A stretch of DNA of 64,000 bases, taken from contig CADAFP010000023.1 in NCBI GenBank assembly GCA_902787185.1, positions 1-64,000 of the forward strand, read 5' to 3'. Source of the DNA: an uncultured Bacteroidales bacterium. Its GTDB lineage: Bacteria; Bacteroidota; Bacteroidia; Bacteroidales; Muribaculaceae. Positions within the stretch are counted from its first letter, which is position 1, and each line of letters opens with the position of its first letter. A program made the translations under genes and the position numbers. The notes beneath the pieces are model-generated. The model made no database searches. It was not told where the DNA came from and saw nothing but the letters and a program-made list of their open reading frames with translations. Shown piece after piece: positions 136-60,782 of this stretch.

Positions 136-170
136 TATAGAAGCTATAGAAACTATAGAAGCTATAGAAG
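136..170. repeat. Intergenic 9-bp-period array, CTATAG core
   Basis: Four units of 9 bp read TATAGAAGC, TATAGAAAC, TATAGAAGC and TATAGAAG. The palindromic word CTATAG recurs at every unit boundary. The same period and core recur at 26704-26739, far away in the window, so this looks like a family rather than one slippage event. Confidence 0.85.
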
Positions 171-180
171 GGGGCGGGAA

Positions 181-288
181 ACGGATGGGACGGATGAGAC
201 GGAGGTAACGGACGGGACGGATGGAACGGAGGAAACGGATGTGACGGATGAGATGGATATAACGGATGGGATGGAGATAACGGATGGG
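181..288. repeat. Intergenic 9-bp-period array, ACGGATGNG units
   Basis: Twelve consecutive 9-bp units such as ACGGATGGG, ACGGATGAG, ACGGAGGTA and ACGGATGTG run without a phase break. Units differ but the period is exact. It lies directly after the CTATAG array and upstream of the promoter of the small secreted protein. Confidence 0.85.
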
Positions 289-369
289 AGTGATGTTGGG
301 TTTTTAAGGGGGGTGATGGGGGTGGCGGTTGCCATTTTTTTAGTAAAAAAAGAAAAATTTCTTTAAAGG

Positions 370-401
370 TTTGTGCGCTCCGAAAAATAGTTATAACTTT
401 G
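370..401 (+). promoter_or_regulatory. Bacteroidetes-type promoter of the small secreted protein
   Basis: TTTG at 370-373, a 20-bp spacer, then TAACTTTG at 394-401 matches the Bacteroidetes TTTG / TAnnTTTG consensus. The start codon at 419 lies 17 bp after the element, so the leader is very short. Confidence 0.7.
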
Positions 402-418
402 TTGATTGATTCAAAACG

Positions 419-748
419 ATGAAACGACTGTTGGCCATATTGACACTGGTACTCGCTCTGGGACTGGGAAATACCGTCCTGGCCGAGATTCAATGGCATG
501 AGACCAACCGTGAGGTGACGGGCAAGGTGCTGAATGACCCGAACACGAGCGATGGCGTGAAGATCTATGGCGGCAATGGGACAATCACGATTGTGACACC
601 CAAGCGCATCAATGTAAGGGTCTATACGATCTTGGGCCAGATGGTCTCACAGGCGACGCTGCAGCAAGGCACCAGCGAACTGCGATTGGGCTCGCGGGGC
701 ATCTATCTGGTCAGGATAGGCAACTTGACACAGAAGGTAGCCATTTAG
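419..748 (+). CDS. Small secreted protein made of a signal peptide and a T9SS-like tail
   Basis: The 109-residue product starts with a clear signal peptide (positive MKR, hydrophobic core, LAE cleavage region near residue 22). After a short linker it carries a segment from about residue 65 (VRVYTILGQMV ... GIYLVRIG) that has the pattern of type IX secretion C-terminal sorting domains: the xVYxxxGQ strand, a Gly-rich turn and a final VxI strand. No catalytic domain fits in between. It has its own promoter and stands alone before ilvE. It could be a mini T9SS cargo or the 3' remnant of a larger cargo gene. The domain reading is by pattern only. Confidence 0.7.
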   Translation: MKRLLAILTLVLALGLGNTVLAEIQWHETNREVTGKVLNDPNTSDGVKIYGGNGTITIVTPKRINVRVYTILGQMVSQATLQQGTSELRLGSRGIYLVRIGNLTQKVAI

Positions 749-823
749 CCGTTTCATCGCTTAAACGAAAGTAAATGACTAAAAAACCATTTAATAACCT
801 TAACTAAACATTAATAAAAGCGT

Positions 824-1852
824 ATGACTAATTTAGAGAACATTGACTGGGCACATCTGCCTTTTGGTTACATGAAGACCGATTACAACGTGCGCTGCAC
901 GTACAAGGACGGTAAGTGGGGTGAAATCGAAGTCACTCAGGACGAGACCGTGACCCTTCACATGGCCGCCAGCTGCCTGCACTATGGTCAGGAGATTTTT
1001 GAAGGTCTGAAGGCCTTCCGCGGTCAGGATGGCAAGATTCGTCTGTTCCGTCCCGACGAGAATGCCAAGCGCTTGCAGAACAGTGCACTTGGTATCAAGA
1101 TGCAGCCGCTTCCCGAGGATATCTTCCTGGAGATGTGCAAGAAGGTCGTTAAGCTCAACGAGCGCTTTATCCCGCCTTATGGCAGTGGCAGCTCGCTCTA
1201 CCTGCGTCCCGTTGAGATCGGTATCTCGCCCCGCGTTGGTGTGAACCCCGCCGATGAATATACGGTAATCATCTTTGTTACCCCCGTTGGCCCGTACTTC
1301 AAGGAGGGCTTCCACTGCACCAAGGTCGCTGTTTACCGCGAGTATGACCGTGCCGCTCCCTGCGGTACCGGCCGTTGGAAAGTCGGTGGTAACTACGCTG
1401 CCGGTATGGGCGCTACCGCCCGTGCTAAGGAGGCTGGCTTCAGCGCAGCCCTGTTCTTGGATCCCAAGGAGAAGAAGTATCTGGACGAGTGCGGTCCCGC
1501 CAACTTCTTCATCATCAAGGGTAACAGCTATATCACCCCGAAGTCGGGTTCTATCCTGCCTTCAATCACCAACATGAGCCTCCAGCAGATTGCCCGTGAC
1601 CTGGGTATGGATGTTGAGGCCCGTCCCATCCCCCTCGAGGAGCTTGCCGAGGCCGACGAGGCTGCCGAGTGCGGCACCGCTGCCGTTACCGCTCCCATCA
1701 GCGAGGTGGTAGATATGGACAAGGATGTTCACTATGTCATCAGCAAGGACGGTAAGGTTGGCCCGAAGGTTACCGCACTGTACAACCGCCTGCGCGCCAT
1801 CCAGATGGGCGACTATCCCGACGAGCACGGCTGGGTAGTCTTTGTGGACTAA
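824..1852 (+). CDS. ilvE: Branched-chain amino acid aminotransferase
   Basis: This cytoplasmic PLP enzyme transfers amino groups between glutamate and the 2-keto acids of leucine, isoleucine and valine, the last step of their synthesis. The 342-residue length suits the longer, eukaryote-like BCAT branch. Visible landmarks are the N-terminal GQEIFEGLKAFRG segment, the phosphate-binding LYLRPVEIG region, and the PLP lysine in GRWKVGGNYAAG at about residue 186. The ATG at 824 gives the usual N terminus. The HD-domain gene follows after 14 bp on the same strand, so the two are probably co-transcribed. I could not place its promoter with confidence. Confidence 0.96.
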   Translation: MTNLENIDWAHLPFGYMKTDYNVRCTYKDGKWGEIEVTQDETVTLHMAASCLHYGQEIFEGLKAFRGQDGKIRLFRPDENAKRLQNSALGIKMQPLPEDIFLEMCKKVVKLNERFIPPYGSGSSLYLRPVEIGISPRVGVNPADEYTVIIFVTPVGPYFKEGFHCTKVAVYREYDRAAPCGTGRWKVGGNYAAGMGATARAKEAGFSAALFLDPKEKKYLDECGPANFFIIKGNSYITPKSGSILPSITNMSLQQIARDLGMDVEARPIPLEELAEADEAAECGTAAVTAPISEVVDMDKDVHYVISKDGKVGPKVTALYNRLRAIQMGDYPDEHGWVVFVD

Positions 1853-1866
1853 TCCCCTGCAGGACA

Positions 1867-2436
1867 ATGCTGGATTGCTTATCCATCATCCAACGATACT
1901 ACACACCCGGTAATGACGATTACCGGGTGTTGGTTCTTCATAGCCGTCAGGTGGCAGACCTGGCTGTTGCCCTCGCGCAGCGCCTTATCGACCGTGGTGT
2001 GCCCATCGACATCGAGTTTGTGGAGGAGGCCGCCATGCTGCACGACATCGGCATGTGCCGCACCGACGCTCCTGGCATTCACTGCCACGGCACCGAGCCT
2101 TATATCCTGCACGGCATCATCGGCCGCAAGATGCTCGACGGCATGGGCCTTTTTCGCCACGGCCGCGTGTGTGAACGCCACACGGGCACTGGTCTCACCG
2201 CTGCCGAAATCATCGCCGAGGGGCTTCCCATCGACCCGCCGCGTGACCTGCTGCCCGAGAGCCTTGAGGAGAAAGTCGTCTGCTATGCCGACAAGTTCTT
2301 CTCCAAGAGCCGTCCCGATGAGGGCGCCAGGACCATTGAACGCACTCGCCAGTCGCTGGCCAAGTTCGGCGGCGATACCTTGGCACGTTTTGACGAGATG
2401 GTCTCCCTGTTTGGCGATCCTGCCGAACTTGCCTGA
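1867..2436 (+). CDS. HD-domain phosphohydrolase-like protein
   Basis: The 189-residue protein is a stand-alone HD domain. The metal-binding motifs are VLHSRQVADLA near residue 25, the defining HD pair in AAMLHDIGM at about residues 56-57, and later His residues in HGIIGRKML and ERHTGTG. Such proteins hydrolyse phosphomonoesters or nucleotides, but the substrate here is unknown. The final helix is typical of small bacterial HD proteins. It follows ilvE by 14 bp and converges on rpsO, with a shared hairpin terminator between them. Confidence 0.85.
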   Translation: MLDCLSIIQRYYTPGNDDYRVLVLHSRQVADLAVALAQRLIDRGVPIDIEFVEEAAMLHDIGMCRTDAPGIHCHGTEPYILHGIIGRKMLDGMGLFRHGRVCERHTGTGLTAAEIIAEGLPIDPPRDLLPESLEEKVVCYADKFFSKSRPDEGARTIERTRQSLAKFGGDTLARFDEMVSLFGDPAELA

Positions 2437-2460
2437 TACTTTTTTTAGAAGCGAAAAAAC

Positions 2461-5671: not shown

Positions 5672-6367
5672 ATGAAAAAGATTACGATAGCCATTGACGG
5701 TCATTCGTCGACGGGCAAGAGCACGATGGCCAAGGTGCTGGCACGACGCATCGGATACGCCTATGTGGACACTGGGGCGATGTACCGGGCTGTGACGTTA
5801 TATGCCCTGCGCAACAAGCTCATCAAGGGTGAAAAGGTGGACGAGAAGGCCCTCAAGGAGCACCTCAAGCGCGGTGACATCACCATCACCTTCCGCCCCA
5901 CCAAGGAGGGTAAGAGCGTGACTGTGCTCAACGGCAAGAACGTGGAACGCTACATCCGCTCGATGCGCGTGAGCAACGTGGTGAGCGTTATCGCCGCCAT
6001 CGGTTTTGTGCGCAAGGCGATGGTCAAGCAGCAGCAGGCCATGGGCAAGGACAAGGGCCTTGTGATGGATGGCCGCGACATCGGCACCGTGGTGTTCCCC
6101 GACGCCGAGATGAAGGTGTTTGCCACGGCAAGTGCCCAGGTGCGTGCCCAACGTCGCTTTGACGAGCTGCGTGCCAAGGGTGACACCACCACGACGTTTG
6201 AGGAGGTGCTGGCCAACGTCACCGAGCGCGACCGCATTGACAGCACGCGCAAGGAAAGCCCCCTGCGCCAGGCCGATGATGCCGTGGTGCTCGATAATTC
6301 CAACATGACGATGGCTGAGCAGGATGAATGGCTGTACCAGCTATACCTGGAGAGAGCGAAGAGTTAA
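5672..6367 (+). CDS. cmk: Cytidylate kinase
   Basis: This enzyme phosphorylates CMP and dCMP to the diphosphates with ATP in the cytoplasm. The P-loop [12 protein letters not shown] spans about residues 7-18. Also visible are the nucleotide-binding [12 protein letters not shown] segment and the [14 protein letters not shown] motif. The ATG at 5672 gives a standard 231-residue protein; the frame is open further upstream, but that part covers the promoter. The stop codon lies inside the 7-bp array that separates cmk from ispH, and both genes read in the same direction. Confidence 0.95.
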
Positions 6368-6418
6368 CAGTTAACAGTTAATAGATAATAGATATTAGAT
6401 AATAGATATTAGATATTT
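6363..6418. repeat. Intergenic 7-bp-period array between cmk and ispH
   Basis: Eight units of exactly 7 bp: GTTAACA twice, GTTAATA, then GATAATA and GATATTA alternating, ending GATATTT. The palindrome GTTAAC is the core of the first units. The array starts at the cmk stop codon (TAA within the first unit) and ends 18 bp before the ispH ATG. Confidence 0.9.
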
Positions 6419-7312: not shown

Positions 7313-7316
7313 AAAC

Positions 7317-7351
7317 GCTAAAAGCTACCAGCTGATAGCTAAAAGCAAAAA
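7317..7351. repeat. Intergenic 7-bp-period array after ispH
   Basis: Five 7-bp units, GCTAAAA, GCTACCA, GCTGATA, GCTAAAA and GCAAAAA, fill the space between the ispH stop (7312) and the next ATG (7358). The junctions carry the palindrome AGCT. Phase is exact throughout. Confidence 0.8.
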
Positions 7352-13453: not shown

Positions 13454-13498
13454 ATCGTGTGTTACGTAGATAACGGATGAAACGTAGATAACGGGTTT
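13454..13498. repeat. Intergenic 9-bp-period array between gmd and fcl
   Basis: Read on the minus strand, the units are CCGTTATCT, ACGTTTCAT, CCGTTATCT, ACGTAACAC and ACGATTTCC, all 9 bp and sharing CG at positions 2-3. The word ACGTAGATAACGG is exactly repeated 18 bp apart on the plus strand. It starts at the gmd stop codon and ends next to the fcl ATG. Confidence 0.65.
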
Positions 13499-15256: not shown

Positions 15257-15814
15257 ATGGCAAAGGAAATCAAGAAATGGACCACGCTCGAGAGCCGCTA
15301 CATCATCCAGCGGCCCTGGCTCACGGCCCGCGTGGACAAGGTGCAGCTGCCCGACGGACGTATCAACCCCGAGCACTATGTGCTGGAGTATCCCGAGTGG
15401 GTTAACATCATTGCCATCACACGCGAGGGCGAATTTGTCATGGTGCGGCAGTACCGCCATGCCATGGATATTGTGCTCGACGAGTTGTGTGCCGGAGTGG
15501 TGGAAGAGGGCGAAGCTCCCATTGATGCCGCACGGCGCGAACTGCTCGAGGAAACGGGCTACGGAGGCGGCCAGTGGCGCGAAATCATGACCGTGGGGCA
15601 GAATCCCAGCATCTGCGACAACATCACCCACTGTTTCCTGGCCGAGGGCGTGGAACGCGTCAGCGGTCAGCACCTGGATGCCGGAGAGGATATTGCCGTG
15701 CTGCTCTTGTCGCGTGACGAGATTGAGACGATGCTGCGTGAGAACCGTCAGCTACAGGCACTCATGGCGGCCCCGCTGTGGCGCTACCTTGCCGAAAACC
15801 CAAAAAATAGTTAG
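15257..15814 (+). CDS. NUDIX hydrolase, ADP-ribose pyrophosphatase-like
   Basis: The 185-residue protein has a full Nudix box: Gly80, Glu86, then RELLEETGY at 94-102, following the pattern GX5EX7REUXEEXGU. N-terminal features (WTTLESRYIIQRPWLTARVD and the later EFVMVRQYRHAM) match ADP-ribose or NDP-sugar pyrophosphatases, which cleave nucleoside diphosphates linked to other moieties. The ATG at 15257 is preferred over an upstream in-frame start. The gene converges on the flavodoxin lipoprotein gene with a strong hairpin between them. Confidence 0.88.
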   Translation: MAKEIKKWTTLESRYIIQRPWLTARVDKVQLPDGRINPEHYVLEYPEWVNIIAITREGEFVMVRQYRHAMDIVLDELCAGVVEEGEAPIDAARRELLEETGYGGGQWREIMTVGQNPSICDNITHCFLAEGVERVSGQHLDAGEDIAVLLLSRDEIETMLRENRQLQALMAAPLWRYLAENPKNS

Positions 15815-15831
15815 GGATTAGGGGATAGGAG
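15811..15831. repeat. Short 7-bp-period array at the NUDIX stop codon
   Basis: TTAGGGA, TTAGGGG and ATAGGAG are three 7-bp units. The NUDIX stop codon TAG lies in the first unit. It is short and weaker than the other arrays but follows the same rule of starting at a stop codon. Confidence 0.5.
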
Positions 15832-17509: not shown

Positions 17510-17516
17510 TCTACTA

Positions 17517-17551
17517 ACTATTCACTGTTAACTATTCACTGTTAACTATTC
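17517..17551. repeat. Intergenic 7-bp-period array between glycosyltransferase and radC
   Basis: ACTATTC and ACTGTTA alternate for five units of 7 bp (14-bp superperiod), with the palindrome GTTAAC inside. It begins directly at the glycosyltransferase stop codon. Almost the same sequence recurs at 27514-27548 between phoH and menG. Confidence 0.9.
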
Positions 17552-25447: not shown

Positions 25448-26689
25448 ATGATGGACTATGTGAACGCTTTTGTGTCGATGCTGAACAGCATGTCGCCCTA
25501 CCTGCTGCTGGGATTCCTGATAGCCGGAGTGCTGCATGCGTTTGTGCCGTCGGCGATTTATAGCCGCTATCTGGCGGGCACTGGACTGCGGTCGGTGGTG
25601 ACGGCTGCGGCTTTCGGCATCCCGTTGCCGTTGTGTTCGTGCGGCGTGCTGCCCACAGCGGTGGCACTGCGTCGCAGCGGTGCCTCGCGTGCCGCCTCCA
25701 CGTCGTTCCTCATCGCCACGCCCCAGACGGGTGTCGATAGCATAGCGGCAACCTACTCGATGATGGGCTTGCCCTTTGCCATCCTGCGTCCTGTGGCGGC
25801 GCTGGTGACGTCGCTGATTGGTGGCCTTGCTGTTGGCCATTGGGAGCGCAAGGGAGCCCTCGACGACGTGCAGGATCATGCTAACTATGAATTCAGCGAG
25901 TTGCCTAAAGGCTTGTGGAACAAAGTGCTGGAAACGCTTAAGTATGGCTTCTTCGACATGATGCAGAGCATTGGTCGCTGGCTGCTTTTAGGCCTGGTCA
26001 TCGCCACGCTGATTACCGTGCTGCTGCCCGACAACTTCTTCTCGACCTATGCCCGCTGGCCGTTACTCAATATGTTCATCATCGTGGCGGTGGCGGTACC
26101 CATGTATGTCTGCGCCACGGGGTCTATCCCCATTGCTGCGGCATTGATGCTCAAGGGAATGTCGCCCGGTTGCGCCCTGGTGTTGCTGATGGCGGGTCCT
26201 GCCGCCAATGTGGCATCGATGTTTGTCGTGAACAACGCTTTCGGCCGCAAGGCTACCATCGTCTATCTGCTGTCCATCATCGGTGGAGCGATGGGCTTTG
26301 GCGTGATTGTGGATTACTGGCCGGGCTTGAGTGAGCTGTTTGTCAATGCTTTGCCCAGTCATGTCATGCATCATCACATGGATGTCTCGTGGTTCAATAC
26401 CGCTTGCAGCATCTTCCTGCTTGGTATGATAGTTGTGTCCCTGAACGCGAAATATTGGAAATCCTATCAAATCAAACGTAATAAAACCAATACAATGAAA
26501 GAATTCAAAGTCAAGGGCATGATGTGCCCCCACTGCAAGGCCAATGTGGAAAAAGGCCTTGCCGCCCTCCCTGGTGTGGAAAAAGTAACTGTTGACCTTG
26601 CCAAGGGCACCGCCCTCGTCGAAGGCTCTGTCCCCGACCAACTCATCATCGACTGCATCGAAGACCTGGGATATCAATACGTCCCATAG
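25448..26689 (+). CDS. Permease (ArsP/SO_0444-like) fused to a C-terminal HMA metal-binding domain
   Basis: About ten membrane segments make up the first 340 residues of 413. The motif LPLCSCGVLPTAVALRRSGA near residue 60 is typical of the UPF0718/ArsP-like permeases, which have been linked to metal or organoarsenic export. The last 70 residues form a heavy-metal-associated domain (FKVKGMMCPHCKANVEKGL) with the CxxC copper or zinc ligand pair. The fusion suggests that the HMA domain delivers a soft metal ion to the permease, acting at the inner membrane. An upstream in-frame TTG overlaps the promoter and is rejected. It converges on menG. Confidence 0.87.
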   Translation: MMDYVNAFVSMLNSMSPYLLLGFLIAGVLHAFVPSAIYSRYLAGTGLRSVVTAAAFGIPLPLCSCGVLPTAVALRRSGASRAASTSFLIATPQTGVDSIAATYSMMGLPFAILRPVAALVTSLIGGLAVGHWERKGALDDVQDHANYEFSELPKGLWNKVLETLKYGFFDMMQSIGRWLLLGLVIATLITVLLPDNFFSTYARWPLLNMFIIVAVAVPMYVCATGSIPIAAALMLKGMSPGCALVLLMAGPAANVASMFVVNNAFGRKATIVYLLSIIGGAMGFGVIVDYWPGLSELFVNALPSHVMHHHMDVSWFNTACSIFLLGMIVVSLNAKYWKSYQIKRNKTNTMKEFKVKGMMCPHCKANVEKGLAALPGVEKVTVDLAKGTALVEGSVPDQLIIDCIEDLGYQYVP

Positions 26690-26703: not shown

Positions 26704-26739
26704 CTATAGCATCTATAGATACTATAGTTTCTATAGAAA
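26704..26739. repeat. Intergenic 9-bp-period array, CTATAG core
   Basis: Four units, CTATAGCAT, CTATAGATA, CTATAGTTT and CTATAGAAA, each 9 bp. The array lies between the permease stop (26689) and the menG stop (26751). Core and period equal those of the array at 136-170. Confidence 0.9.
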
Positions 26740-26750: not shown

Positions 26751-27503
26751 TTACTTCGCGGCGGTATAGATTGTGCAGACGCCAAGGGTGAGGCGCTTGA
26801 AGGTGGCTTCGCGCAAGCCTGCGTTGCGCATCAGTTGTAGCATGTCGTCGCCCTGGGGGACGGCGGCGATACTTTGTGGCAGGTAGCGGTAGGCACTTTT
26901 CTCGCCACTTTTCTTGGAGCCGATCCACGGGATAATGTGCAGGGTATAGAGGTCGTAGAACCAGCGGATGATGGGATTGGTGGGCGTGGACAGTTCCAGC
27001 ACGCACAACATGCCGCCGGGGCGCAGCACACGCGCCATTTCCTGATAGCCCTGCTGCAGGTGCTCGAAGTTGCGCACCCCGAAGGCTACCGTTACCGCGT
27101 CATAGGATTCGTCTTCCATCTCCAGGGCCATGCAATCGCCCTGCTCGAAACTGATATTTTTTTCCAGCCCTTTCTCCTTGACTTTGCGGCAGGCCTCGTC
27201 GAGCATCCCCTGTGAGAGATCGATGCCCGTGATGTGCTGCGGGTGCAGGGATTTGAACAGCTGGATGGCAAAGTCGCCCGTGCCCGTTGCCACATCGAGA
27301 ATGCGGGTAGGGGAGAGACGTTTTAGGCGTTTTACCGCCAACCGTCGCCACCAGATGTCGATGCCCAACGTCATGGCGCGGTTCATGAAGTCATAGGCAG
27401 GCGCGATGGCGTCAAACATCTGCCTGACCTGCTCAGTCTTGGCCGTCGCCTGGTCACCATAAGGCGTCACCCGCTCAACCCGATTCCCATTCTCGTCACT
27501 CAT
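26751..27503 (-). CDS. ubiE: Demethylmenaquinone methyltransferase
   Basis: The class I SAM methyltransferase that adds the last methyl group of menaquinone, the quinone of Bacteroidales. Visible motifs are the SAM-binding ILDVATGTGDFAIQL, the family signature DAIAPAYDFMNRAMTLGID upstream of it, GIDLSQGMLDEA, DAVTVAFGVRNFE, and the C-terminal IPWIGSK. The ATG at 27503 gives the 250-residue length expected for UbiE/MenG. It follows phoH on the same strand across a 7-bp-period array. Confidence 0.95.
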   Translation of the reverse strand: MSDENGNRVERVTPYGDQATAKTEQVRQMFDAIAPAYDFMNRAMTLGIDIWWRRLAVKRLKRLSPTRILDVATGTGDFAIQLFKSLHPQHITGIDLSQGMLDEACRKVKEKGLEKNISFEQGDCMALEMEDESYDAVTVAFGVRNFEHLQQGYQEMARVLRPGGMLCVLELSTPTNPIIRWFYDLYTLHIIPWIGSKKSGEKSAYRYLPQSIAAVPQGDDMLQLMRNAGLREATFKRLTLGVCTIYTAAK

Positions 27504-27513: not shown

Positions 27514-27548
27514 TTGTTCACTGTTAACTATTCACTGTTAACTATTCA
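27514..27548. repeat. Intergenic 7-bp-period array between phoH and menG
   Basis: ACTGTTA and ACTATTC alternate in exact 7-bp steps, with GTTAAC as palindromic core. The phoH stop codon (27538-27540) lies inside the array. The unit pair is the same as at 17517-17551. Confidence 0.9.
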
Positions 27549-28494
27549 CGAGTTTGTCTTCCTCGTGGAAACGCTCGTAGGCCTCGACGATGCGTTGCAC
27601 CAACTGGTGGCGCACGATGTCCTTTTTCTCAAACTCCACTTTGCCGATGCCCTTCACGCCCTTGAGCACGCGCAGGGCATGAATCAGGCCCGATGTGGTG
27701 CTGCGAGGCAAGTCGATTTGCGTCGTGTCGCCCGTGACAATCATCTTAGAGCCCATGCCCAGGCGGGTGAGGAACATCTTGATTTGGTGCGTCGTGGTGT
27801 TCTGTGCCTCGTCGAGCACGATGATGGCGTCGTTCAAGGTGCGGCCGCGCATGAACGCCAGCGGAGCGATTTGGATAACGTTGTTCTCCATGTACTCCTT
27901 GAGCTTGGCCTGCGGAATCATATCCTCAAGCGCGTCATATAGCGGTTGCAGGTAGGGATCGATTTTGTCCTTCATATCGCCCGGCAGGAAACCCAGTTTC
28001 TCGCCAGCCTCGACGGCAGGACGTGAAAGGATGATTTTGCGGGCCTCGCGGTTCTTGAGCGACCTGACGGCGAGTGCCACCGCCAGATAGGTCTTACCCG
28101 TTCCCGCAGGTCCCAGGGCGAAGGTCAGGTCATTCTCGGCAAACGTCTGCACCAGCAGCTGCTGGTTGGGCGTTCGGCCGCTGATGGGCTTGCCGTTCAC
28201 GCCATAGACGATGACGTCGTCCATCTTCAATTGTTTGGGCGGCGCCCCTTTGATGGTGTCGATGATGACATCCTCGGGCAGCGTGTTATAGGTCGCGCAA
28301 TAGTCGGCCAAGGCATGGATTTTCTCCTCAAACTGGGCCGTCTCGCTGTCGTCGCCGATGACCGTGATGACACTGCCCCTTGCTGCCATGCGCAGTTTCG
28401 GGAACAGGTTGCGGATAAGTTGTATGTTACTGTTATTCACCCCGTAGAAAGTCACAGGGTCCACGTTATCAATAATAATGTGCCGTTCAATCAT
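27538..28494 (-). CDS. phoH: PhoH-like ATPase
   Basis: A 318-residue PhoH/PhoL-type protein: an N-terminal KH-like segment (LFPKLRMAARGSVITVIGDD) followed by the PhoH ATPase domain with Walker A GPAGTGKTYLAVALA and Walker B IIVLDEAQNTT. PhoH-like proteins are RNA-linked P-loop ATPases; PhoH2 relatives are helicase-RNases and others help ribosome or rRNA processing. The precise job in this organism is unknown. The stop codon lies within the array before menG. Confidence 0.92.
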   Translation of the reverse strand: MIERHIIIDNVDPVTFYGVNNSNIQLIRNLFPKLRMAARGSVITVIGDDSETAQFEEKIHALADYCATYNTLPEDVIIDTIKGAPPKQLKMDDVIVYGVNGKPISGRTPNQQLLVQTFAENDLTFALGPAGTGKTYLAVALAVRSLKNREARKIILSRPAVEAGEKLGFLPGDMKDKIDPYLQPLYDALEDMIPQAKLKEYMENNVIQIAPLAFMRGRTLNDAIIVLDEAQNTTTHQIKMFLTRLGMGSKMIVTGDTTQIDLPRSTTSGLIHALRVLKGVKGIGKVEFEKKDIVRHQLVQRIVEAYERFHEEDKLVNS

Positions 28495-28599: not shown

Positions 28600-28647
28600 T
28601 CGATTTCTCGATTACTCGAATAATCGATTACTCGAGCAATCGATAAA
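28600..28647. repeat. Intergenic 8-bp-period array, TCGA core
   Basis: TCGA starts at 28600, 28608, 28616, 28624, 28632 and 28640, an exact 8-bp period, with flanking words such as ATCGAT and CTCGAG. It lies between phoH and the four-helix protein gene, 11 bp after the latter's stop. Confidence 0.9.
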
Positions 28648-28658: not shown

Positions 28659-29405
28659 TTAATCCCGCAGCGTGCCCTGGCACTCAGGATAGCCCGAGCA
28701 GCCCCAGAATTGCTGCCCTGCCCTGGTTCCGCGCTTGATGGTGCGACGAATCATGGGCTTGCCGCACAGCGGGCAAACTGGTGCACCATGCTCCACTGCC
28801 TGCTGAGCCTGCGTGTTGGTGCGTTCACGTGTCAACCCCTCGGTGAAGCCTCCCTGCTGCTTGAAGTCCTGCAGCTGCCGCTCCATCATCTTTTGCAGCA
28901 TCGAGATATTGCGGTTGATGAGCAGTTTGATGGAGTTGACCCTCACCGTGAGGTCCTCGCTCTCGACCCACGGGGCGAAACGTTGCCGCTGGGCCTGGAC
29001 GTGGAGCCATGCGTCACGCTCAATATCGGCACCATAGTTTGGACGCTCTAATTGCAGACTCTTGAACCTCTGGTAATTCACGCTATCGACAGGCCACGGC
29101 TCAATGTTGTGAGTGAGCGAGAATGCCATGAAATCGCTTAATAGTTCACTCAGGGTGGCGCGCGCCACGTCGGTCAGGCGCATCTCGGTCTCGCGGCTGG
29201 TTTGGCGCCGCGAACTCCCCTCGGCGATGTTGGCGGTAGCGCTGCGTGCCGCCATCACCATTTGGTCAAACAGGCGTCCGCCAGGGTCGTTGCCCTTGTT
29301 CAGGAACCTCCGGCAAAAGCTTATCGTGGCCTGGTGGATGATGTGAGCCATGACCCAGGCATCCAGGTAGTAATATCCCTTGACAGATTTAAATTCAATA
29401 GGCAT
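28659..29405 (-). CDS. Four-helix-bundle protein with a C-terminal topoisomerase-type zinc finger
   Basis: The first 110 residues (YLDAWVMAHIIHQATISFCRRF, MVMAARSATANIAEGSSRR) match the four-helix-bundle family related to the 23S rRNA intervening-sequence (S23) protein. A helical linker follows. The last 40 residues hold a C4 zinc ribbon (CPLCGKPMIRRT, then FWGCSGYPECQGTL) of the type at the C terminus of topoisomerase I. Together this suggests a nucleic-acid-binding protein, role unknown. 8-bp TCGA arrays lie on both sides of the gene. Confidence 0.85.
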   Translation of the reverse strand: MPIEFKSVKGYYYLDAWVMAHIIHQATISFCRRFLNKGNDPGGRLFDQMVMAARSATANIAEGSSRRQTSRETEMRLTDVARATLSELLSDFMAFSLTHNIEPWPVDSVNYQRFKSLQLERPNYGADIERDAWLHVQAQRQRFAPWVESEDLTVRVNSIKLLINRNISMLQKMMERQLQDFKQQGGFTEGLTRERTNTQAQQAVEHGAPVCPLCGKPMIRRTIKRGTRAGQQFWGCSGYPECQGTLRD

Positions 29406-29440: not shown

Positions 29441-29468
29441 TCGAGCATTCGATAACTCGCTGATTCAA
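29441..29468. repeat. Degenerate 8-bp-period TCGA array
   Basis: TCGA at 29441 and 29449, TCGC at 29457 and TTCA-like sequence at 29465 keep the 8-bp phase. It is a weaker partner of the array at 28600-28647 on the other side of the same gene. Confidence 0.5.
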
Positions 29469-31535: not shown

Positions 31536-31591
31536 TAGTTTATTGATTAATTAGATATTCAATTTTTGTTGTTTTAGTGCTATAGGAAAAT

Positions 31592-31623
31592 GTGTACCCG
31601 CTTTTGTGATATAGCGGGTACAC
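31592..31623 (-). terminator. Terminator hairpin after the Ig-repeat fragment
   Basis: GTGTACCCGC (31592-31601) and GCGGGTACAC (31614-31623) form a perfect 10-bp stem, followed on the minus strand by ATTTTCC. It shares its arms with the hairpin at 29626-29657. Confidence 0.75.
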
Positions 31624-31692
31624 GATTTAGAATGGTGAAATGCCTGTCATAATCTCTGTCAAAGACAGTTTCATAGCATTACAATGTGAATA

Positions 31693-32697
31693 CTAATATT
31701 GACCTGCGTTTATTCCCCTTCCAGAGACATTAACCTTCTTGTCTTCTGCGCCGCCACCACTAACTGTGATTTCGCCAGTATCTGTTTTATTGCCTACATG
31801 TATAGTACTGGGCGTATACGTCACTGTCACCGTCGCACCTGCAGCTGCTTGGTCGGCAGTAATTGTGGTGGGTGATACGGAGAAGATGGTTTTGTCAGAT
31901 GACTTCACGGCCAAACTACCTGTCAAGTTGGATCCCGTAACAGTAAACGTCTTTGTGCTGTGAGACCCATCCCCATAGGGAACACTACCGCACCAAATCG
32001 ACTCTGGGTTGACTGTGATAGTGGGTTTTACACATTTTCCTTCGAAGGCGAATCTTGCGGAAGCGACGTGCTTGGAATCACTGATATTGATGAATCCGCC
32101 GTAGTTGCCCGCTTGATTCGGGTGGAAGGTGATAGAATAGGTTCCACCCTGTGTCACAGACGGAATGTTCCCCGGCACATTAGTGGTCACGGTAAACGAT
32201 TTCGTCAGGCTCTTGCCCGGGGTGAGGGTTCCGAAGTCCAGTGGGTTGGGCGTGACGGTAATATAACCTGCTACACACTTTCCGGTCAGAGATACAGTCT
32301 TGTTTTCTGCGCCACCGCCGCTGATTGTGATAGTTCCGTTGTCTGTGCTGCCTACAGTCGTGGGTTCATAAGTGACAGTCACGGTGCATCCACTTGCAGC
32401 CTGCGCCTTGGTAATGGTTGACGGGCTGACAGTGTATTTGCCATTGTTCGAAGCCAGACTCAGAGATCCATTCAGACCGGATACTTTCACCGTGAATGTC
32501 ATTTGTTTAGTGTAACCCTTGACAACCTCGCCGAAATTCAGTGATTCGGGATTTGGCGTGTAATTCGGAGCACATTTTCCTTCGAAGGCGAATCTTGCGG
32601 AAGCGACGTGTTTGGAATCACTGATATTGATGAATCCGCCGTAGTTGCCCGCTTGATTCGGGTGGAAGGTGATAGAATAGGTTCCACCCTGTGTCAC
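31693..32697 (-). pseudogene. Frameshifted C-terminal part of the Ig-repeat surface protein
   Basis: The 334-residue frame starts at a GTG that overlaps the TGA stop of the 893-residue frame (GTGA). It begins in the middle of an Ig-like domain (TQGGTYSITFHPNQAGNYGG), has no signal peptide, and continues the upstream protein's repeats to the end VSGRGINAGQY. It is therefore the downstream half of one broken gene. Removing the 26 bp between the two GTTCCACC words (32681 and 32707) would join the frames into a protein of a little over 1,200 residues. Reinitiation at the overlapping GTG could still make it, but it would stay in the cytoplasm. Confidence 0.8.
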
Positions 32698-33005
32698 AGA
32701 CGGAATGTTCCACCGTAAGTCGATGACAAGGTACCCGGCACATTGGTTGTCACGGTAAACGATTTCGTCAGGCTCTTGCCAGGCTCAAGCGTACCGAAGT
32801 CCAGTGGGTTGGGCGTGACGGTAATATAACCTGCTACACACTTTCCGGTCAGAGATATAGTCTTGTTTTCTGCGCCACCGCCGCTGATTGTGATAGTTCC
32901 GTTGTCTGTGCTGCCTACAGTCGTGGGTTCATAAGTGACAGTCACAGTGCATCCACTTGCAGCCTGCTCCTTGGTAATGGTTGACGGGCTGACAGTGTAT
33001 TTGCT
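32033..33005. repeat. Tandem duplication of a two-domain unit within the Ig-repeat gene
   Basis: The block from 32033 recurs at 32573 (540 bp later, one difference over 138 bp). After a 23-bp size difference near 32711 the match continues at an offset of 563 bp to about 33005. 540 bp equals 180 codons, two Ig-like domains. The 23-bp difference throws the reading frame. Confidence 0.85.
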
Positions 33006-35375
33006 GTTGTCGGATGATACGGTGAGGCTCCCAGTCAAGTTTGCCCCTGTCACAGTAAACGTTCTGGTCGCAGTATATTCTGTGACAACATCACCGAAAT
33101 TCAATGACGTTTTATCTACCGATAAATCAAGACAATTACCAGTTACTGTCACGGTGTCACTTGGCCCATAAGCACATTTGATGTAAATCGTCATGGAATG
33201 TGTTCCGGTGGCTGTAGGATTATAGGTCACGGTAAAGGTCCCGTTTCCAGTGGTAGAGTCCATGTTCTTTGTGATAGAGAACATATTTGTATTACTTGTC
33301 CGACTGATACTTACACCATCTGACACGTTAGATGTAGTGACAGTAAAGGTCTGATTAGCTGTATCTCCTAAAATGATGGTGCCGTAATCATGTGATTCGG
33401 GACTGACGACAATTGTGGGCGGCTCGGCAGTTTCATAGACAAGCACGCTGATGTTCTTCCTTTCTTCGGAGCGTTCGTCTTTTATAGTTAAAGTTGTGGT
33501 GCCTTTCTTAAGAGCAGTTATCTTTATGGATTGTCCTGTTACGTAGGCCGCACAGACTTTTGAGTCGCCAATAGAGAGTTTGTAATTTCCCCAACCACCG
33601 ATAAAATCAATGGTTCGTGTTTTCCCTTTCTGTATTAAAATCGTATCCTGAACTTCCAATGTCTCGGGAATCGTCACAGTAGAAAAGTAAGACTCATCAT
33701 TTGCTTCTACAGTTTTGCCGAAGATTTTAAAGATGGGTTTTGCTGTATAGGTGCCAGCGGGGTATGGATGTCCATCCCAAAGTTCCATCTGTAAGTCAGT
33801 ACCATTCCAATTATCATAATATTGGTAAGAACTATCTGAGAAATAGGAATAATCTCTATTATTACCTGAAATACTGATGCCTGGTTGTACAGGGAAAATC
33901 AGATTCTTGGAAATGTTGGTGGTCAATGCAGTGGCAGAGTATTCACTGGCTGTCCAGTGAGGCAAGAAAGGAGCATTGAACCTCGGGAAAAGCCAAAGTG
34001 TTCTAGGTGATAAACTTGGGAACCACTGGGCTATAGGCAACTCGCCTAAAGGCCAGTCTTTCTTAAATCCAAGAACATCTACACCTCCAGTTAGTGTCGC
34101 AGTTAACGGTTCAAAAGTGATGCTATCGTTAAAATGTTCATTATAAACTGTGGCAAGATTCGTGTTGAATCCTAGCGTTCCTGATAGCCTAGGACCAATT
34201 TTAAGCGTAAGGTTGACACTGGCCAAATCTTCATCAACAAGACAAGCACCAACCTTGAGAGCCAAACCGGCAGAAACAGTAGCATCAATATTGGCAAAAC
34301 CTTCTGTCTTGTCCCAGACTGGTTTTTTGAAATCAAGCCAAAGACCCTTGTGATCAGCATCTATGCCTTGATAATCTGAATCATAACCAACTTGTGATTC
34401 CAAGGTAACGCGTCGTTTTACACCAAAGCCAGCGTTGCCATTGAGTTTAAAATATCCACCAAGGCTGATAAATGCGTTCAGTCCGATTTCAGGCACTATT
34501 GGAATATCAAGGGAACAAAAGTCTGGATAATAATCAACATCCACATCGAAAGATTTATCCCAATAGAAACCAAGATCACAAACCATTGTGTTATTGGCAA
34601 CAAATCGGAATCTGTCTTTTGCTCCAATTCCAATGTACACAAGATAGTCAAGGTTAATTTCAGGAGTAACGTCTAATGATACATGGCTATTCCCAAGTCT
34701 TATGATATCGAAAGATTGTGTATCAAAAGGTATGGTTTTAACTCCCTCTTCGTCAACTAAGTCAAGCGCTCTATCAGACATTAGTGTAAGGGTTGAGTCT
34801 TCATTGGCCGTTACAACTTTACCAAAACGTAATAAAGATGTGAAAATATCTTCCAGATTAACATCTTCACATTCGATACTAACAATATTACCCGAAGTGA
34901 CGATATTGGTCACACGTCCAGAGAAACCATGTAAAAATGGCTCTTTGTAAGCTCTTTCGCTGATAATCACTTGGCCAATGACTGGAAGCGAATCAGCTGG
35001 GATAGATGCGTCGAATGTCACTGTGGATTCTGACACTTCTATCACATACGGGTAATGGAAATCCCTGATGTGAAATACACTATCATTATAAACGGGCTTG
35101 GGACTTTTGAAGGTGACACTGTCGATGTTAGTGATAGGAATACGGTGTGCACTACCTTGTTTCCAAACTTCCTGAACAACAACATTTGGATGCATTGTAC
35201 CATCAAGATCAACCTTGCTAAAGGTGATACTGTCCACATCGCTAAAGAGGAAAGCACTGACTTCCCCGTTGTTTTGCCAGTTGATATAACCTGGTTGCTG
35301 GGCTTGGGCCGTCATTGGGGTGAATGCGGCGATGATGGATACCAGCAGACTGAAGAAAAGACTGTACTTTTTCAT
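32694..35375 (-). CDS. Surface protein with Ig-like repeats, N-terminal part of a frameshifted gene
   Basis: The 893-residue frame has a signal peptide (YSLFFSLLVSIIAAFTPMTAQA). A long beta-rich region of about 620 residues follows with no family I recognise; it contains two VDSITFSK/IDSVTFKS-type segments near the N terminus that are common in Bacteroidales surface proteins. From about residue 650 come Ig-like domains like those of the neighbouring 602-residue protein. It stops shortly after TNVPGTLSSTYGG, inside a domain, because of an out-of-frame 26-bp duplication. The upstream dockerin gene overlaps its start by 4 bp, so the two are translationally coupled. Confidence 0.8.
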   Translation of the reverse strand: MKKYSLFFSLLVSIIAAFTPMTAQAQQPGYINWQNNGEVSAFLFSDVDSITFSKVDLDGTMHPNVVVQEVWKQGSAHRIPITNIDSVTFKSPKPVYNDSVFHIRDFHYPYVIEVSESTVTFDASIPADSLPVIGQVIISERAYKEPFLHGFSGRVTNIVTSGNIVSIECEDVNLEDIFTSLLRFGKVVTANEDSTLTLMSDRALDLVDEEGVKTIPFDTQSFDIIRLGNSHVSLDVTPEINLDYLVYIGIGAKDRFRFVANNTMVCDLGFYWDKSFDVDVDYYPDFCSLDIPIVPEIGLNAFISLGGYFKLNGNAGFGVKRRVTLESQVGYDSDYQGIDADHKGLWLDFKKPVWDKTEGFANIDATVSAGLALKVGACLVDEDLASVNLTLKIGPRLSGTLGFNTNLATVYNEHFNDSITFEPLTATLTGGVDVLGFKKDWPLGELPIAQWFPSLSPRTLWLFPRFNAPFLPHWTASEYSATALTTNISKNLIFPVQPGISISGNNRDYSYFSDSSYQYYDNWNGTDLQMELWDGHPYPAGTYTAKPIFKIFGKTVEANDESYFSTVTIPETLEVQDTILIQKGKTRTIDFIGGWGNYKLSIGDSKVCAAYVTGQSIKITALKKGTTTLTIKDERSEERKNISVLVYETAEPPTIVVSPESHDYGTIILGDTANQTFTVTTSNVSDGVSISRTSNTNMFSITKNMDSTTGNGTFTVTYNPTATGTHSMTIYIKCAYGPSDTVTVTGNCLDLSVDKTSLNFGDVVTEYTATRTFTVTGANLTGSLTVSSDNSKYTVSPSTITKEQAASGCTVTVTYEPTTVGSTDNGTITISGGGAENKTISLTGKCVAGYITVTPNPLDFGTLEPGKSLTKSFTVTTNVPGTLSSTYGGTFRL

Positions 35376-36271
35376 GGCTTCAAGGATTTAAGGATTTCAC
35401 AATCTTCTTCACTGATACAAACGCCTGCAAGCTTGTTTTCAAAGGTTACGGTGCGCTCTACGTAGCGCAGTTGTGACAGATTTTCAAGAGAAAAAGAGAT
35501 GGTGTGTGGATTGCGCGTGCCATTGTTTCTTAGTGATCCTCGAATTCGCAGTTTGCCATCAACAATATTTACCTTGGTGTTCTCATCAATCATGTATTCA
35601 TAGTTCACACCATTTGTGTTACTTACGATTATGAAGGTGCAGAGCCTGGTATCGGGAACTCCTAAGATAAGGTCTATAAGGGTACTGGCATCGGCAATAG
35701 TGACTTTACCGTCTTCATCTACGTCAGCTGCTGCTAGGTTAATGTCGGTTGGGTCACCGCTCAACAAGTAGTCAATGATGGCTGTAACATCGGCAACGGT
35801 AACCAGTCCGTCACCATCGGCATCACCCTTCAATACAGTTGCTATGCCGATAAGGTTCTTTGAAGCCACAGGCTGGCCGCTAGCGTTGTTGAGATAAACG
35901 GTTGCTGAGTGTTCGCCAGCGATTGTGGGTCGATATGTGACTTCCACAGTTGCAATATAAGTTGTCGTTGTGCTGCCAGATGCCACCATCACGTTTACTA
36001 AAGTAGCCGTGAAAAATCGGTTGCTGATGCTGACTGAGAAATCGTTCGTGCCCTTGAGTGAGGTGGGCTCTTGCTGTCCAGTGGCGTTTAATCTGACAAC
36101 CCCGTTGACTACATACTGTAGTTTGATGGTGTGGGTGTCTGATTGCCCTACATACGCTTCAAAATATTCGCCTGTCGGGTCGATGAATCCGCTGCCGGAA
36201 ACTTCTTGTGCCGCTAGTCCTTGGGATAGAGCCAGGATTAGGGCGATGAGTAATACAAGTTTTTGTTTCAT
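35372..36271 (-). CDS. Secreted dockerin-containing protein
   Basis: A 299-residue protein with a signal peptide (QKLVLLIALILALSQGLAAQ). A beta-rich domain (about 25-145) comes next, then a type I dockerin-like pair of calcium loops (about 148-207: GDADGDGLVTVADVTAIIDY and DVDEDGKVTIADASTLIDL), then a C-terminal beta domain of 90 residues. It is the first gene of the surface-protein unit and overlaps the 893-residue frame by ATGA, implying joint expression. In other bacteria dockerins bind cohesins; here the partner is unknown, though cohesin-like domains occur in the protein at 19552-22119. Confidence 0.78.
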   Translation of the reverse strand: MKQKLVLLIALILALSQGLAAQEVSGSGFIDPTGEYFEAYVGQSDTHTIKLQYVVNGVVRLNATGQQEPTSLKGTNDFSVSISNRFFTATLVNVMVASGSTTTTYIATVEVTYRPTIAGEHSATVYLNNASGQPVASKNLIGIATVLKGDADGDGLVTVADVTAIIDYLLSGDPTDINLAAADVDEDGKVTIADASTLIDLILGVPDTRLCTFIIVSNTNGVNYEYMIDENTKVNIVDGKLRIRGSLRNNGTRNPHTISFSLENLSQLRYVERTVTFENKLAGVCISEEDCEILKSLKP

Positions 36272-57783: not shown

Positions 57784-57784
57784 T

Positions 57785-58768: not shown

Positions 58769-58778
58769 CCATAAGCTG

Positions 58779-59558: not shown

Positions 59559-59569
59559 CAACGGGGTGT

Positions 59570-59647
59570 TATGCCATCATTCAACTAAAATATCATAACC
59601 GCGCGTGCGTTAGCACGGTTATGTTACGGAGAATGAATGATGACATA
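59570..59647. terminator. Nested inverted repeats between convergent genes
   Basis: Outer arms 59570-59583 and 59634-59647 match over 13 of 14 bases. Inner arms CATAACCG (59594-59601) and CGGTTATG (59616-59623) pair within. It lies between the cupin-ABM and flavin reductase genes and probably ends both. Confidence 0.6.
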
Positions 59648-59712
59648 CCGTCTTATGTTACCAAAATGTTTTTTTTGGTGCACCAGCCTGATTTTATTGT
59701 AGTGTGGGAATT

Positions 59713-60294
59713 TTACTTTCTCCAGGCGCCGATGACTTCGCCGATATAGACGGCGTGGATGCCCGCGTCAAACCTGCTGTAGAATTTGCGGGGAGTGTCG
59801 TTGCGGAAGTCCTTCTCCTCTTGATGGAAGGCGGTGATGATTTCGCACTCGATGACGGTCTTGGCCTCGGTGTAATAGGGCGTTCCGCTGGGCGTGTAGG
59901 CCACATGCAGACCTAATGCCGCCGCTTTGTCGCCGTCACGGCCGCTGTGGCTGCCCATGTAATTTGCCACCTCCTCGTCGTCAAACTCCATGATGGTGAA
60001 CCTCGGGTAACGCTCCATGAACTCATAGGTGTAACGCGCGGGGGCGACATAGACACTCACGGTCAAGCGGTTATAGCCCAGATAATTGCCCAAACTGCCC
60101 CAACCGATGGTCATGGCGTTGTGTTCAGTCTTGTCGCCGGACAGCAGGATGGGTGCGTGGGAAAAGAACGTGAACGCATTGTCGGTGAACTCCTCTTTCA
60201 GGTTCATCTCCTTGTAGCCCTCAAGGGACTGGGCGAAAGCGTCTTGCAGCGAAAACATAGTCAAAATAAAGGCTAAAATGATATACTTCTTCAT
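59713..60294 (-). CDS. Exported flavin reductase-like (split-barrel FMN-binding) protein
   Basis: The 193-residue protein carries a signal peptide (KKYIILAFILTMFSLQDAFAQ). A flavin-reductase split barrel follows (ILLSGDKTEHNAMTIGWGSLG, LTVSVYVAPARYTYEFMER, YPRFTIMEFDDE). Members bind FMN and reduce flavins or act as flavoenzymes; most are cytoplasmic. Its start codon directly follows a nine-unit array of 9 bp that takes the place of a normal leader, downstream of the HMA gene on the same strand. Confidence 0.85.
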   Translation of the reverse strand: MKKYIILAFILTMFSLQDAFAQSLEGYKEMNLKEEFTDNAFTFFSHAPILLSGDKTEHNAMTIGWGSLGNYLGYNRLTVSVYVAPARYTYEFMERYPRFTIMEFDDEEVANYMGSHSGRDGDKAAALGLHVAYTPSGTPYYTEAKTVIECEIITAFHQEEKDFRNDTPRKFYSRFDAGIHAVYIGEVIGAWRK

Positions 60295-60299
60295 ATTTT

Positions 60300-60380
60300 C
60301 TAGTTTTTCTAGTTTTTCTAGTTTTTCTAGATGTTCTAGATGTTCTAGATATTCTAGATATTCTAGATTATCTAGATAAG
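60300..60380. repeat. Intergenic 9-bp-period array, CTAG core, nine units
   Basis: CTAG starts every 9 bp from 60300 to 60372: CTAGTTTTT three times, CTAGATGTT twice, CTAGATATT twice, then CTAGATTAT and CTAGATAAG. Neighbouring units are more alike than distant ones, as in stepwise duplication. It ends 6 bp before the flavin reductase ATG. Confidence 0.95.
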
Positions 60381-60399
60381 TTAACTCCTAACCTAAAAC

Positions 60400-60729
60400 C
60401 TACATATTTGGGCACTCTTCTTCCCCGTCGGTGGCAATCTGCTCGTCTTCCTTGACTTCGCGGGCGTTGTAATTGATTTTCTCAAAGCCCTTGATGATGT
60501 TCTCGACGGTGGTCTTGTCGGCGTCATAGGTGATGGTGACCGTTTGGTGCTCGACGTCGGTCACGATTTTCTTGATGCCCTTCTCAAAGCGGATGTTTTC
60601 CTTGATGCGCTTCTCACAACCCTCGCAGTGCATCTGTGGAACGGTGGTGAGTACAACGGTCTTGATGTCCTTGGCGCTGGCCATGATCATAGTCAGCAAC
60701 ATGACGGTCAACAGAATTAATTTCTTCAT
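60400..60729 (-). CDS. Secreted HMA-domain metallochaperone
   Basis: 109 residues: a signal peptide (LILLTVMLLTMIMASA) then a heavy-metal-associated domain with the metal-binding CxxC at Cys35 and Cys38 (MHCEGCEKRI) and a typical GIKKIVTDVEHQTVTITYD core. The C-terminal tail is acidic and ends ECPNM. It probably carries copper or a similar ion in the periplasm. It lies 46 bp after the TonB receptor gene on the same strand and is likely co-expressed with it. Confidence 0.9.
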   Translation of the reverse strand: MKKLILLTVMLLTMIMASAKDIKTVVLTTVPQMHCEGCEKRIKENIRFEKGIKKIVTDVEHQTVTITYDADKTTVENIIKGFEKINYNAREVKEDEQIATDGEEECPNM

Positions 60730-60754
60730 TTTATCTCTTTTTTAAATTGTTATA

Positions 60755-60782
60755 CTAGGGACTAGAAACTAGAAACTATCTA
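60755..60782. repeat. 7-bp-period CTAG array at the TonB receptor stop codon
   Basis: CTAG at 60755, 60762 and 60769, then CTAT at 60776, each 7 bp apart. The receptor's stop codon (TAG on the minus strand, 60776-60778) is part of the array, which leads into the HMA gene. Confidence 0.8.

Follow-up and report, generated by a model that had tools for sequence, protein, structure and literature searches.

Intergenic tandem arrays of 7- to 9-bp units in a Muribaculaceae genome: probable arms of small elements carrying four-helix-bundle genes

Why do short tandem arrays of nearly constant period, but of differing unit sequence, lie between the genes of a bacterium? This question is raised by a 64,000-nucleotide stretch of DNA from an uncultured Bacteroidales bacterium of the family Muribaculaceae, referred to below as the window (positions 1-64000 of contig CADAFP010000023.1, designated C23, of assembly GCA_902787185.1, designated genome G000; 3.22 Mb, 81% complete). 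The initial annotation of the window listed 13 intergenic arrays with periods of 7, 8 or 9 bp and considered their unit sequence to be free. The analysis described here suggests, with moderate confidence, that the arrays are arms or solo arms of small selfish gene elements, encoding a four-helix-bundle protein that would recognize its own unit and promote movement. Directly supporting this reading are the period rule, the intergenic position, the matched inverted arms of gene-bearing elements, the correspondence between unit and protein clade, and the presence of one site both with and without the gene. The gene-less arrays of the window would have originated from such four-helix gene elements.

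The genome-level sample comprised the window and 40 stretches of its own genome (853,446 b, 614 genes, 549 spacers; genes were predicted by our own hexamer-based caller, and 82% of the bases were coding). It contains 121 intergenic arrays, 87 with period 7 and 16 with period 9, while 18 are spread over eleven other periods (period 14 in four arrays, period 8 in two, the remaining rare periods in one or two each). Another 10 arrays were found in coding DNA. Shuffling of the spacers, a comparison proposed in the initial annotation, yielded 0.4 arrays per replicate (20 replicates) against the 121 observed. Exact intergenic runs of at least 14 matches numbered 28, 11, 34, 11, 21 and 11 at lags of 7, 9, 14, 18, 21 and 28, respectively, and 0-2 at each other lag up to 30. 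The claimed fixed-period and mostly intergenic family is thus real, with 103 of the 121 intergenic arrays having period 7 or 9. The arrays consist of units joined head to tail, 7-9 bp long and with no unique spacers between them, and are correctly described as distinct from clustered regularly interspaced short palindromic repeats (CRISPR).

The unit sequence, however, is not free. The 90 period-7 arrays (87 intergenic and 3 mostly within called genes) do differ, having 30 consensus units, but a few families dominate, and the tetramer YTAR is present in 77 of the 90 consensus units versus 17 expected from shuffled units. Recurrent 7-mer families are A[CT]AGT[TG]A, ACTARRR, AGTTAGR, CCTAANR / TTTAGGC, GATTAGN and TAGATAN; among the 9-mers, CTATAGNNN, TCTAGANNN, ACGGANNNN and CTCYGAGNN recur. 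The same families are found again at scattered sites of the genome, many units contain the palindromes noted initially, and a shared generating process, as was proposed, is likely. A role of the arrays as six-frame stop-codon spacers (YTAR provides a stop on both strands, and 7 is prime to 3) fits the 7-mers and fails for the 9-mers; it is a possible reason why 7-mers are tolerated and is silent on their origin. YTAR as a transposon target with footprints was dropped, since some units lack it.

Several long array-bearing spacers of relatives contain, between two arrays, a reading frame of the PF05635 family, named '23S rRNA intervening sequence protein'. A complete element would comprise a tandem array of a 7- to 10-bp unit, a four-helix-bundle gene, and the same array inverted. 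Within the genus, short proteins (about 120 amino acids, PF05635) are associated mainly with 7-mers, and long ones (about 180-260 amino acids) with 8-, 9- and some 10-mers. Loci of short genes were represented by the best-scoring PF05635 match, one per genome (30 loci from the genus and 30 from other genomes of the phylum), and the frames of 30 short genes were located by hidden Markov model for the count of array sides. Among the 30 genus loci, arrays flank the short gene on both sides in 16 and on one side in 9. Long genes have arrays on both sides in 11 of 20 cases and on one side in the other 9, none lacking them (counted over a wider range of 150 nt). Two-sided arrays are rare at other genes of 80-300 amino acids (5 of 278 in relatives, 6 of 225 in the own genome). 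For other genes within the 30 short-gene loci the numbers are 3 of 22 on both sides and 12 on one side, because these neighbours share the arms.

The two arms of an element match each other. Arm pairing was evaluated as the duplex energy of the 120 nt upstream of the gene with 130 nt around and after its stop codon, for 29 of the 30 genus loci (L300 lies too close to a contig end). Cognate arms gave -64.5 kcal/mol versus -40.2 for swapped arms (0 of 10,000 permutations), the value for 60 control genes of the own genome being -39.8, and the true partner ranked best of 29 in 12 elements. In the second set, which drew one element from each of 30 further genomes of the phylum, cognate arms gave -48.0 versus -36.2 kcal/mol (0 of 10,000 permutations), with the true partner best of 30 in 5 cases and among the top three in 14. 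The arms of this set include 7-mers and 9-mers, many of them not called as arrays. Nonamer arrays such as CTCTGTGCC and ACTTAGTAT were seen by eye beside PF05635 genes at L342, L343, L316, L323 and L340, all in other genomes of the phylum. PF05635 matches (E 0.001) are present in 193 of 247 Bacteroidota genomes, in 182 of them over the cut-off, with up to 16 per genome. Two four-helix gene copies, G025:C17:30609-30922 and G009:C19:23614-23925, are broken, the first by a split frame with stops and the second by a single in-frame stop; this points to decay after insertion.

The unit also follows the clade of the protein. Unit labels for the protein trees were read by eye, the flanks having been seen beforehand. 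For 21 long proteins with 9 labels (one of them 'other'), the tree requires 8 label changes, compared with a mean of 14.3 for shuffled labels (0 of 200 as low). For 39 long proteins with 14 labels, 14 changes were counted (minimum 13; shuffled mean 30.0; 0 of 200), on a tree that omits L372 and L375, has long branches and leaves 9 of its 38 inner branches open. Hence the notion of free sequence fails for the 8- and 9-mers at long four-helix genes as well. Kindred clades have kindred units, as in the pairs ACGGA and CTGGA, and CTCYGAG and CTNAGA. In a held-out set of 20 proteins, the unit was predicted from the nearest known protein and the observed unit was taken as the commonest of nine preset motifs; the prediction was right in 8 of 12 scorable cases, at 71-96% identity to the nearest protein, and the 4 misses were at 47-58%. 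The 'TCGA' reported by the motif counter in three of the four misses is an artefact, the arrays reading AAGGTCCTTA. The 8 unscorable cases (predicted 'other' or motif count below 4) include L375 (71% nearest identity) and L372 (68%). Among the short proteins, too, the closer two of them are in sequence identity, the more similar are their arms (Mantel rho 0.46 for the genus and 0.38 for the phylum loci; 0 of 2000 in both). In GTCNGAC arrays (L364, L382, L353 and L360) the unit appears by eye to be about 10 bp, which suggests that the period is not confined to 7-9 in all element clades.

A long-type gene with an array on each side is present in the window itself (28659-29405; Table 1). Its protein comprises a PF05635/TIGR02436 N-terminal part (26.4 bits for PF05635, below the Pfam cut-off of 33.8; 28.2 bits for TIGR02436, above the cut-off of 24), a four-helix 'suffix' region (33.4 bits; cut-off 40) and a C-terminal topoisomerase-type zinc ribbon (36 bits; cut-off 32). 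The fold assignment is based on Pfam/NCBIfam and on the similarity of a short relative to PDB sequences (2gsc, 2rld), the protein itself having only a weak match in PDB (2gsc, E 0.11); short four-helix proteins also distantly match the retroelement protein Avd. The protein groups with those of G011, G015 and G030, which likewise have TCGA 8-mer arrays, in different flanking DNA. The proteins of this TCGA clade have the zinc ribbon, of the topoisomerase/recombinase type (residues 211-246 in the window protein), and the other aligned long proteins end without those cysteines. The unit TCGANNNN of the 3'-side arm is also present in the orthologous spacer of G035. The 5'-side arm alone is not above chance (834 of 1000 shuffles) and was accepted by eye from its position and unit.

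Copies without the gene would consist of a single array or of an inverted pair of arrays enclosing a 9-bp core, GCGGATGCC. Two or more 7-mer arrays were called in 21 co-directional spacers, and in every one of these a plus array (TTAG, AACAG type) comes first and a minus array (CTAA, CTGTT type) second; one of them contains two minus arrays. The core or its complement, with at most one mismatch, was found in 13 of the 21 linkers versus 27 of 3265 array-free spacer segments. The exact core has 59 copies, 36 of them in spacers and 18 of the latter adjoining 7-mer arrays; its reversed word has 5 copies, none in a spacer. Many arrays lack a called partner. The median folding z-score was -3.1 for spacers with core and array (n=14), -1.8 for spacers with 7-mer arrays and no exact core (n=40), and -1.0 for array-free spacers (n=248). 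Degenerate 9-mer-like sequence accompanies the core in other spacers of the own genome (L037 9811-13909, L044 18474, L019 2648 and 12616), and most of it escapes the 7-mer array detector.

The arrays sit at gene 3' ends. In the 853,446-b sample, 66 of 407 co-directional spacers carry arrays, as do 12 of 69 convergent spacers but only 1 of 73 divergent ones. Of 88 co-directional arrays, 39 begin no more than 3 nt from the stop codon of the preceding gene, compared with 17.2 at random (maximum 28 in 2000 placements), and 28 overlap that codon. There is no excess of arrays close to the next start codon (31 versus 33.3 at random placement).

On whether relatives lack the arrays the evidence is divided: close relatives carry them, a given site often showing different units, and 20 sampled genomes of the same order have nearly none (2 period-7 arrays and one period-8 array in 261,701 b). 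Period-7 arrays numbered 11 in G009 and 5 in G015 (80 kb each). The core plus the first arm unit was detected in 14 of 41 genus genomes (control 0). A scan for this combination in one genome of each of 84,980 species returned at least 98 stretches, and the 80 stretches listed are all labelled Prevotellaceae, Muribaculaceae, Porphyromonadaceae or Bacteroidales. IspH protein was found in 20 of 23 loci (one per assembly), always at 85-92% identity, and 3 loci had no match. Among 36 genus-mates, 10 contain the four-unit form of the family-A pattern, against 1 of 24 genomes of the same order; the three-unit form occurs in at least 10 of 295 other genomes of the phylum (with pure repeats among the matches listed).

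Array sites turn over between genomes, as judged from spacers whose two bordering genes remain adjacent. Comparison of 21 window spacers with up to 12 relatives covered 166 genome-sites, 34 of them with arrays; at 10 of the 21 spacers, every genome compared lacks an array. Upstream of ispH, 7 of 13 genomes have arrays, which fall into 6 different calls; spacer 16778|17552 has arrays in 5 of 8 genomes (5 calls) and spacer 25448|26751 in 6 of 9 (5 calls). At the last site the window was scored as empty, since its CTATAG array (26704-26739) has a score of 11.5, below the threshold of this comparison. In some genomes almost no spacer remains at array sites (-1 to 10 nt), which indicates that arrays are gained and lost. 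Spacer 25448|26751, between the orthologs of 25448-26689 and 26751-27503, contains array, gene and array in G009 and G018, only the plus array in G032 and only the minus array in G025, all of the same 7-mer family; G033 and G021 have TCTAGA-type 9-mers there, and the window CTATAG 9-mers. At least 11 contigs of the window's genome carry CTATAG arrays, and one gene of the CTATAG clade was located in this genome (on C67), two of the four weak PF05635 matches being listed.

The following mechanism may be proposed for elements that would reside in spacers at gene 3' ends. The four-helix protein would bind its unit in DNA or in an RNA hairpin and help to copy the array into new spacers, either via DNA or via a transcribed hairpin, as in rRNA insertion elements. 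Multivalent binding by an oligomeric four-helix protein could explain the fixed period, the arrays would lengthen by slippage and by duplication of one to four units, and copies harming genes or promoters would be purged by selection. We know of no transposase motif in the four-helix-bundle protein. A broader proposal, held with somewhat less than even confidence, is that of a new selfish class common in Bacteroidota, in which a four-helix-bundle protein of the family of the 23S rRNA intervening sequences (IVS) and Avd would read a unit of 7-10 bp and either spread inverted tandem arrays of it or build them at the 3' ends of genes, accompanied by its own gene or not; clade and unit would co-evolve, giving every clade a code of its own.

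Two rival explanations have to be weighed. Under neutral slippage, the arrays would be long simple sequence repeats whose 7-nt period reflects the geometry of the polymerase, and the four-helix genes would be incidental neighbours. Heptamers have been described as the commonest class of long repeats, and slippage was proposed for them (Mrazek 2007, as cited in PMC4679880 and PMC4692102). The runs at lags of 14, 21 and 28 do suggest multi-unit duplication, and the near absence of period 7 from genes (3 of 90 arrays) is expected if frameshifts are removed. Slippage alone is nevertheless unlikely, considering that unit families recur at dispersed sites, that arrays form inverted pairs, that arms around one four-helix gene match each other, that the unit follows the protein clade, and that the 20 same-order genomes contain just 2 period-7 arrays. 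Alternatively, the transcribed arrays could be intercistronic hairpins kept for stability or processing of mRNA, the link to four-helix genes being secondary. Their position and stop-codon overlap are as in repetitive extragenic palindromic (REP) sequences (PMC3733652), spacers with core and array fold better than array-free ones, and RNase III cuts the 23S IVS that carry this protein family (PMC4990558). This role is about as improbable as slippage, given that in gene-less pairs swapping the arms scarcely worsens their match, that many arrays have no called partner, and that units and periods turn over at one site, many relatives having no array there.

REP-associated tyrosine transposases (RAYT) are Y1 (IS200-like) transposases, and such an enzyme, or a reverse transcriptase, might be the maker of the arrays, although this is very improbable. 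Matches to the Y1 family PF01797 exceed the cut-off in 37 of 41 genus genomes; at the 5 Y1 loci examined, however, neither the core nor a called 7-9-mer array was found within 400 nt of the gene, and Y1 transposase was set aside as a partner. The reverse transcriptase DRT10 produces tandem-repeat DNA (PMC12632851), RVT_1 matches are present in 17 of 41 genus genomes, including that of the window, and the distant match of short four-helix proteins to Avd points the same way. A reverse transcriptase or telomerase-like origin is, however, largely refuted by seven array-bearing relatives without an RVT_1 match (G009, G021, G024, G032, G033, G036 and G061).

Several observations weigh against an origin of the arrays from four-helix gene elements. 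Physical linkage of gene and arrays, and hence shared descent alone, could produce much of the match between protein and unit, and the unit labels were not read blind; on the other hand, unit identity is kept across clades and sites even though arm sequences diverge. Gene-less pairs only weakly prefer their own partner over swapped ones (523 of 5000 permutations as good; 26 of 2000 in another test), 8 of 21 pair no better than with one arm flipped, and strict hairpin pairing in these copies was rejected as weak. No called array flanks 5 of the 30 short genes on either side, and no target-site duplication was identified. The arrays are patchy, called 7-mer arrays numbering 2 in G005 (59 kb), 0 in G012 (54 kb) and 0 in G025 (80 kb). 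In the 7-mer-rich genome of the window, all 4 PF05635 matches stay below the Pfam cut-off (the assembly is 81% complete), and the 853-kb sample contains no short-type four-helix gene. G006 and G009 carry CTATAG arrays, yet their 3 and 4 PF05635 matches are all of the short type, so that a resident matching gene is not needed now. In view of such genomes, arrays outlive the gene or arise otherwise.

The array sites of the window are collected in Table 1. Each of the 13 intervals listed initially was compared with 1000 dinucleotide shuffles, using the best score at any period of 4-15; 9 are strong (at most 1 of 1000 shuffles), 2 are marginal and 2, 29441-29468 and 13454-13498, are unsupported as written.

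Table 1. Array sites and the four-helix-bundle gene of the window (positions of the 64-kb stretch)
Feature	Position	First listed	Strand	Remark
period-9 array CTATAGNNN	136..170		.	strong by shuffling
period-9 array ACGGANNNN	178..289	181-288	+	strong by shuffling
period-7 array, AGTTAAC then TAGATAW	6353..6417	6363-6418	+	strong by shuffling
period-7 array AGCTNNN, weak	7314..7351	7317-7351	+	marginal, 32/1000 shuffles
18-bp duplication of ACGTAGATAACGGATGAA (9-mer type)	13454..13498		.	by eye
period-7 array GATTAGG, 3 units, weak	15811..15831		+	marginal, 39/1000 shuffles
period-7/14 array ACAGTGAATAGTTA	17515..17551	17517-17551	-	strong; immediately 3' of stop codon
period-9 array CTATAGNNN, convergent spacer	26704..26739		.	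strong by shuffling
period-7/14 array ACAGTGAATAGTTA	27514..27549	27514-27548	-	strong; contains stop codon of PhoH gene
period-8 array TCGANNNN	28600..28647		.	strong, 0/1000; 3'-side arm of gene 28659-29405
four-helix-bundle gene, 248 amino acids, long type	28659..29405		-	between period-8 arrays 28600-28647 and 29441-29468
decayed period-8 TCGA array, unit TCGANNNN	29441..29468		.	5'-side arm of gene 28659-29405
period-9 array TTCTAGNNN / TCTAGANNN	60296..60377	60300-60380	.	strong by shuffling
period-7 array ACTAGRR	60755..60782		.	strong; overlaps 3' end of TonB-receptor gene

Units of several of these arrays also border long four-helix genes: CTATAGNNN of 136..170 at G000:C67, ACGGANNNN of 178..289 in six relatives, and TCTAGA units, as in 60296..60377, in G025, G063, G021 and G017. 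Array 6353..6417 contains the stop codon of the cytidylate kinase gene. The interval 13454-13498 fails the shuffle test (955 of 1000 at periods 4-15), its 18-bp period being beyond the range of that test, and the orthologous spacers have 9-mer-like sequence or a length of -1 to 2 nt. The arrays at 17517-17551 and 27514-27548 have an exact period of 14, formed by two alternating 7-mers; at the latter site no array was called in 9 of 13 genomes compared. An Rfam search of the window at gathering thresholds matched no RNA family. The stretch 29727-36271 contains four low-GC genes with low coding scores and with dockerin type I and ASH/Hydin-like immunoglobulin domains, and PADLOC matched no defence system in these four genes.

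We know of no function assigned to the 'four helix bundle protein' (PF05635/TIGR02436). Among the matches listed, titles and abstract beginnings in the open-licence part of PubMed Central (PMC) revealed no paper joining such arrays to four-helix genes, and searches there for TIGR02436, TIGR04258, 'four helix bundle suffix' and 'S23 family protein' returned plant papers by title. The initial statement that no named family fits holds in part, as the arrays themselves resemble known heptamers. Heptamer arrays in bacterial spacers are long known, slippage being a leading idea about them (PMC4679880, PMC4692102): TAACTGA in Beggiatoaceae, Cyanobacteria and Bacteroidetes (PMC4679880), and GGGAATC in Xanthomonas and GGGGAYT in Nostoc (PMC4692102). 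Like the arrays studied here, repeats of the TAACTGA and short tandemly repeated repetitive (STRR) type have period 7, are intergenic, lie near an open reading frame boundary and are species-specific. They are direct-repeat families of one fixed heptamer, whereas many unit families, inverted pairs and 8- and 9-mers occur here; inverted partner arrays, 9-mer sisters and a linked gene are not mentioned in the available text of these sources (PMC4679880, PMC4692102). The BrickBuilt minisatellite miniature inverted-repeat transposable element of Porphyromonas gingivalis likewise lies between genes of a member of Bacteroidota and encloses a tandem repeat within inverted repeats, but differs in its 23-nt unit, 19 copies in one strain and promoter activity, with no gene mentioned in the available text (PMC4596501).

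If the arrays and the four-helix genes form one system, each protein clade predicts a testable DNA or RNA unit, the 23S rRNA intervening sequences join a wider class of elements, and the location of such sequences at gene ends and their turnover between species become easier to explain. The 23S IVS with an S23/IVP reading frame (Coxiella and others) shares the protein family by name (S23p; PF05635 = 23S_rRNA_IVP) and, according to the available text of PMC4990558, has its gene between inverted complementary flanks, as here; it was called selfish, and a mobility role was once proposed for the frame. The 23S IVS, however, lies in 23S rRNA and is described with a single 28-bp stem (PMC4990558), while the elements compared here lie between protein genes, are flanked by tandem arrays of 7-10 bp units that vary by protein clade, and include dispersed gene-less arrays. 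REP sequences and bacterial interspersed mosaic elements associated with RAYT are, in turn, dispersed inverted repeats sited mainly where genes run in the same direction or converge, their GTAG types often supply a TAG stop codon, and many of their copies are gene-less (PMC3733652). The bias in location is shared by the present arrays, which occupy a single one of the 73 divergent spacers, and gene-less copies are likewise frequent here. REP sequences differ in being single palindromes rather than tandem arrays, and the partner genes of the present elements are PF05635-like. The best reading is that of an element that would work like REP/RAYT, but with a protein of the 23S-IVS type.

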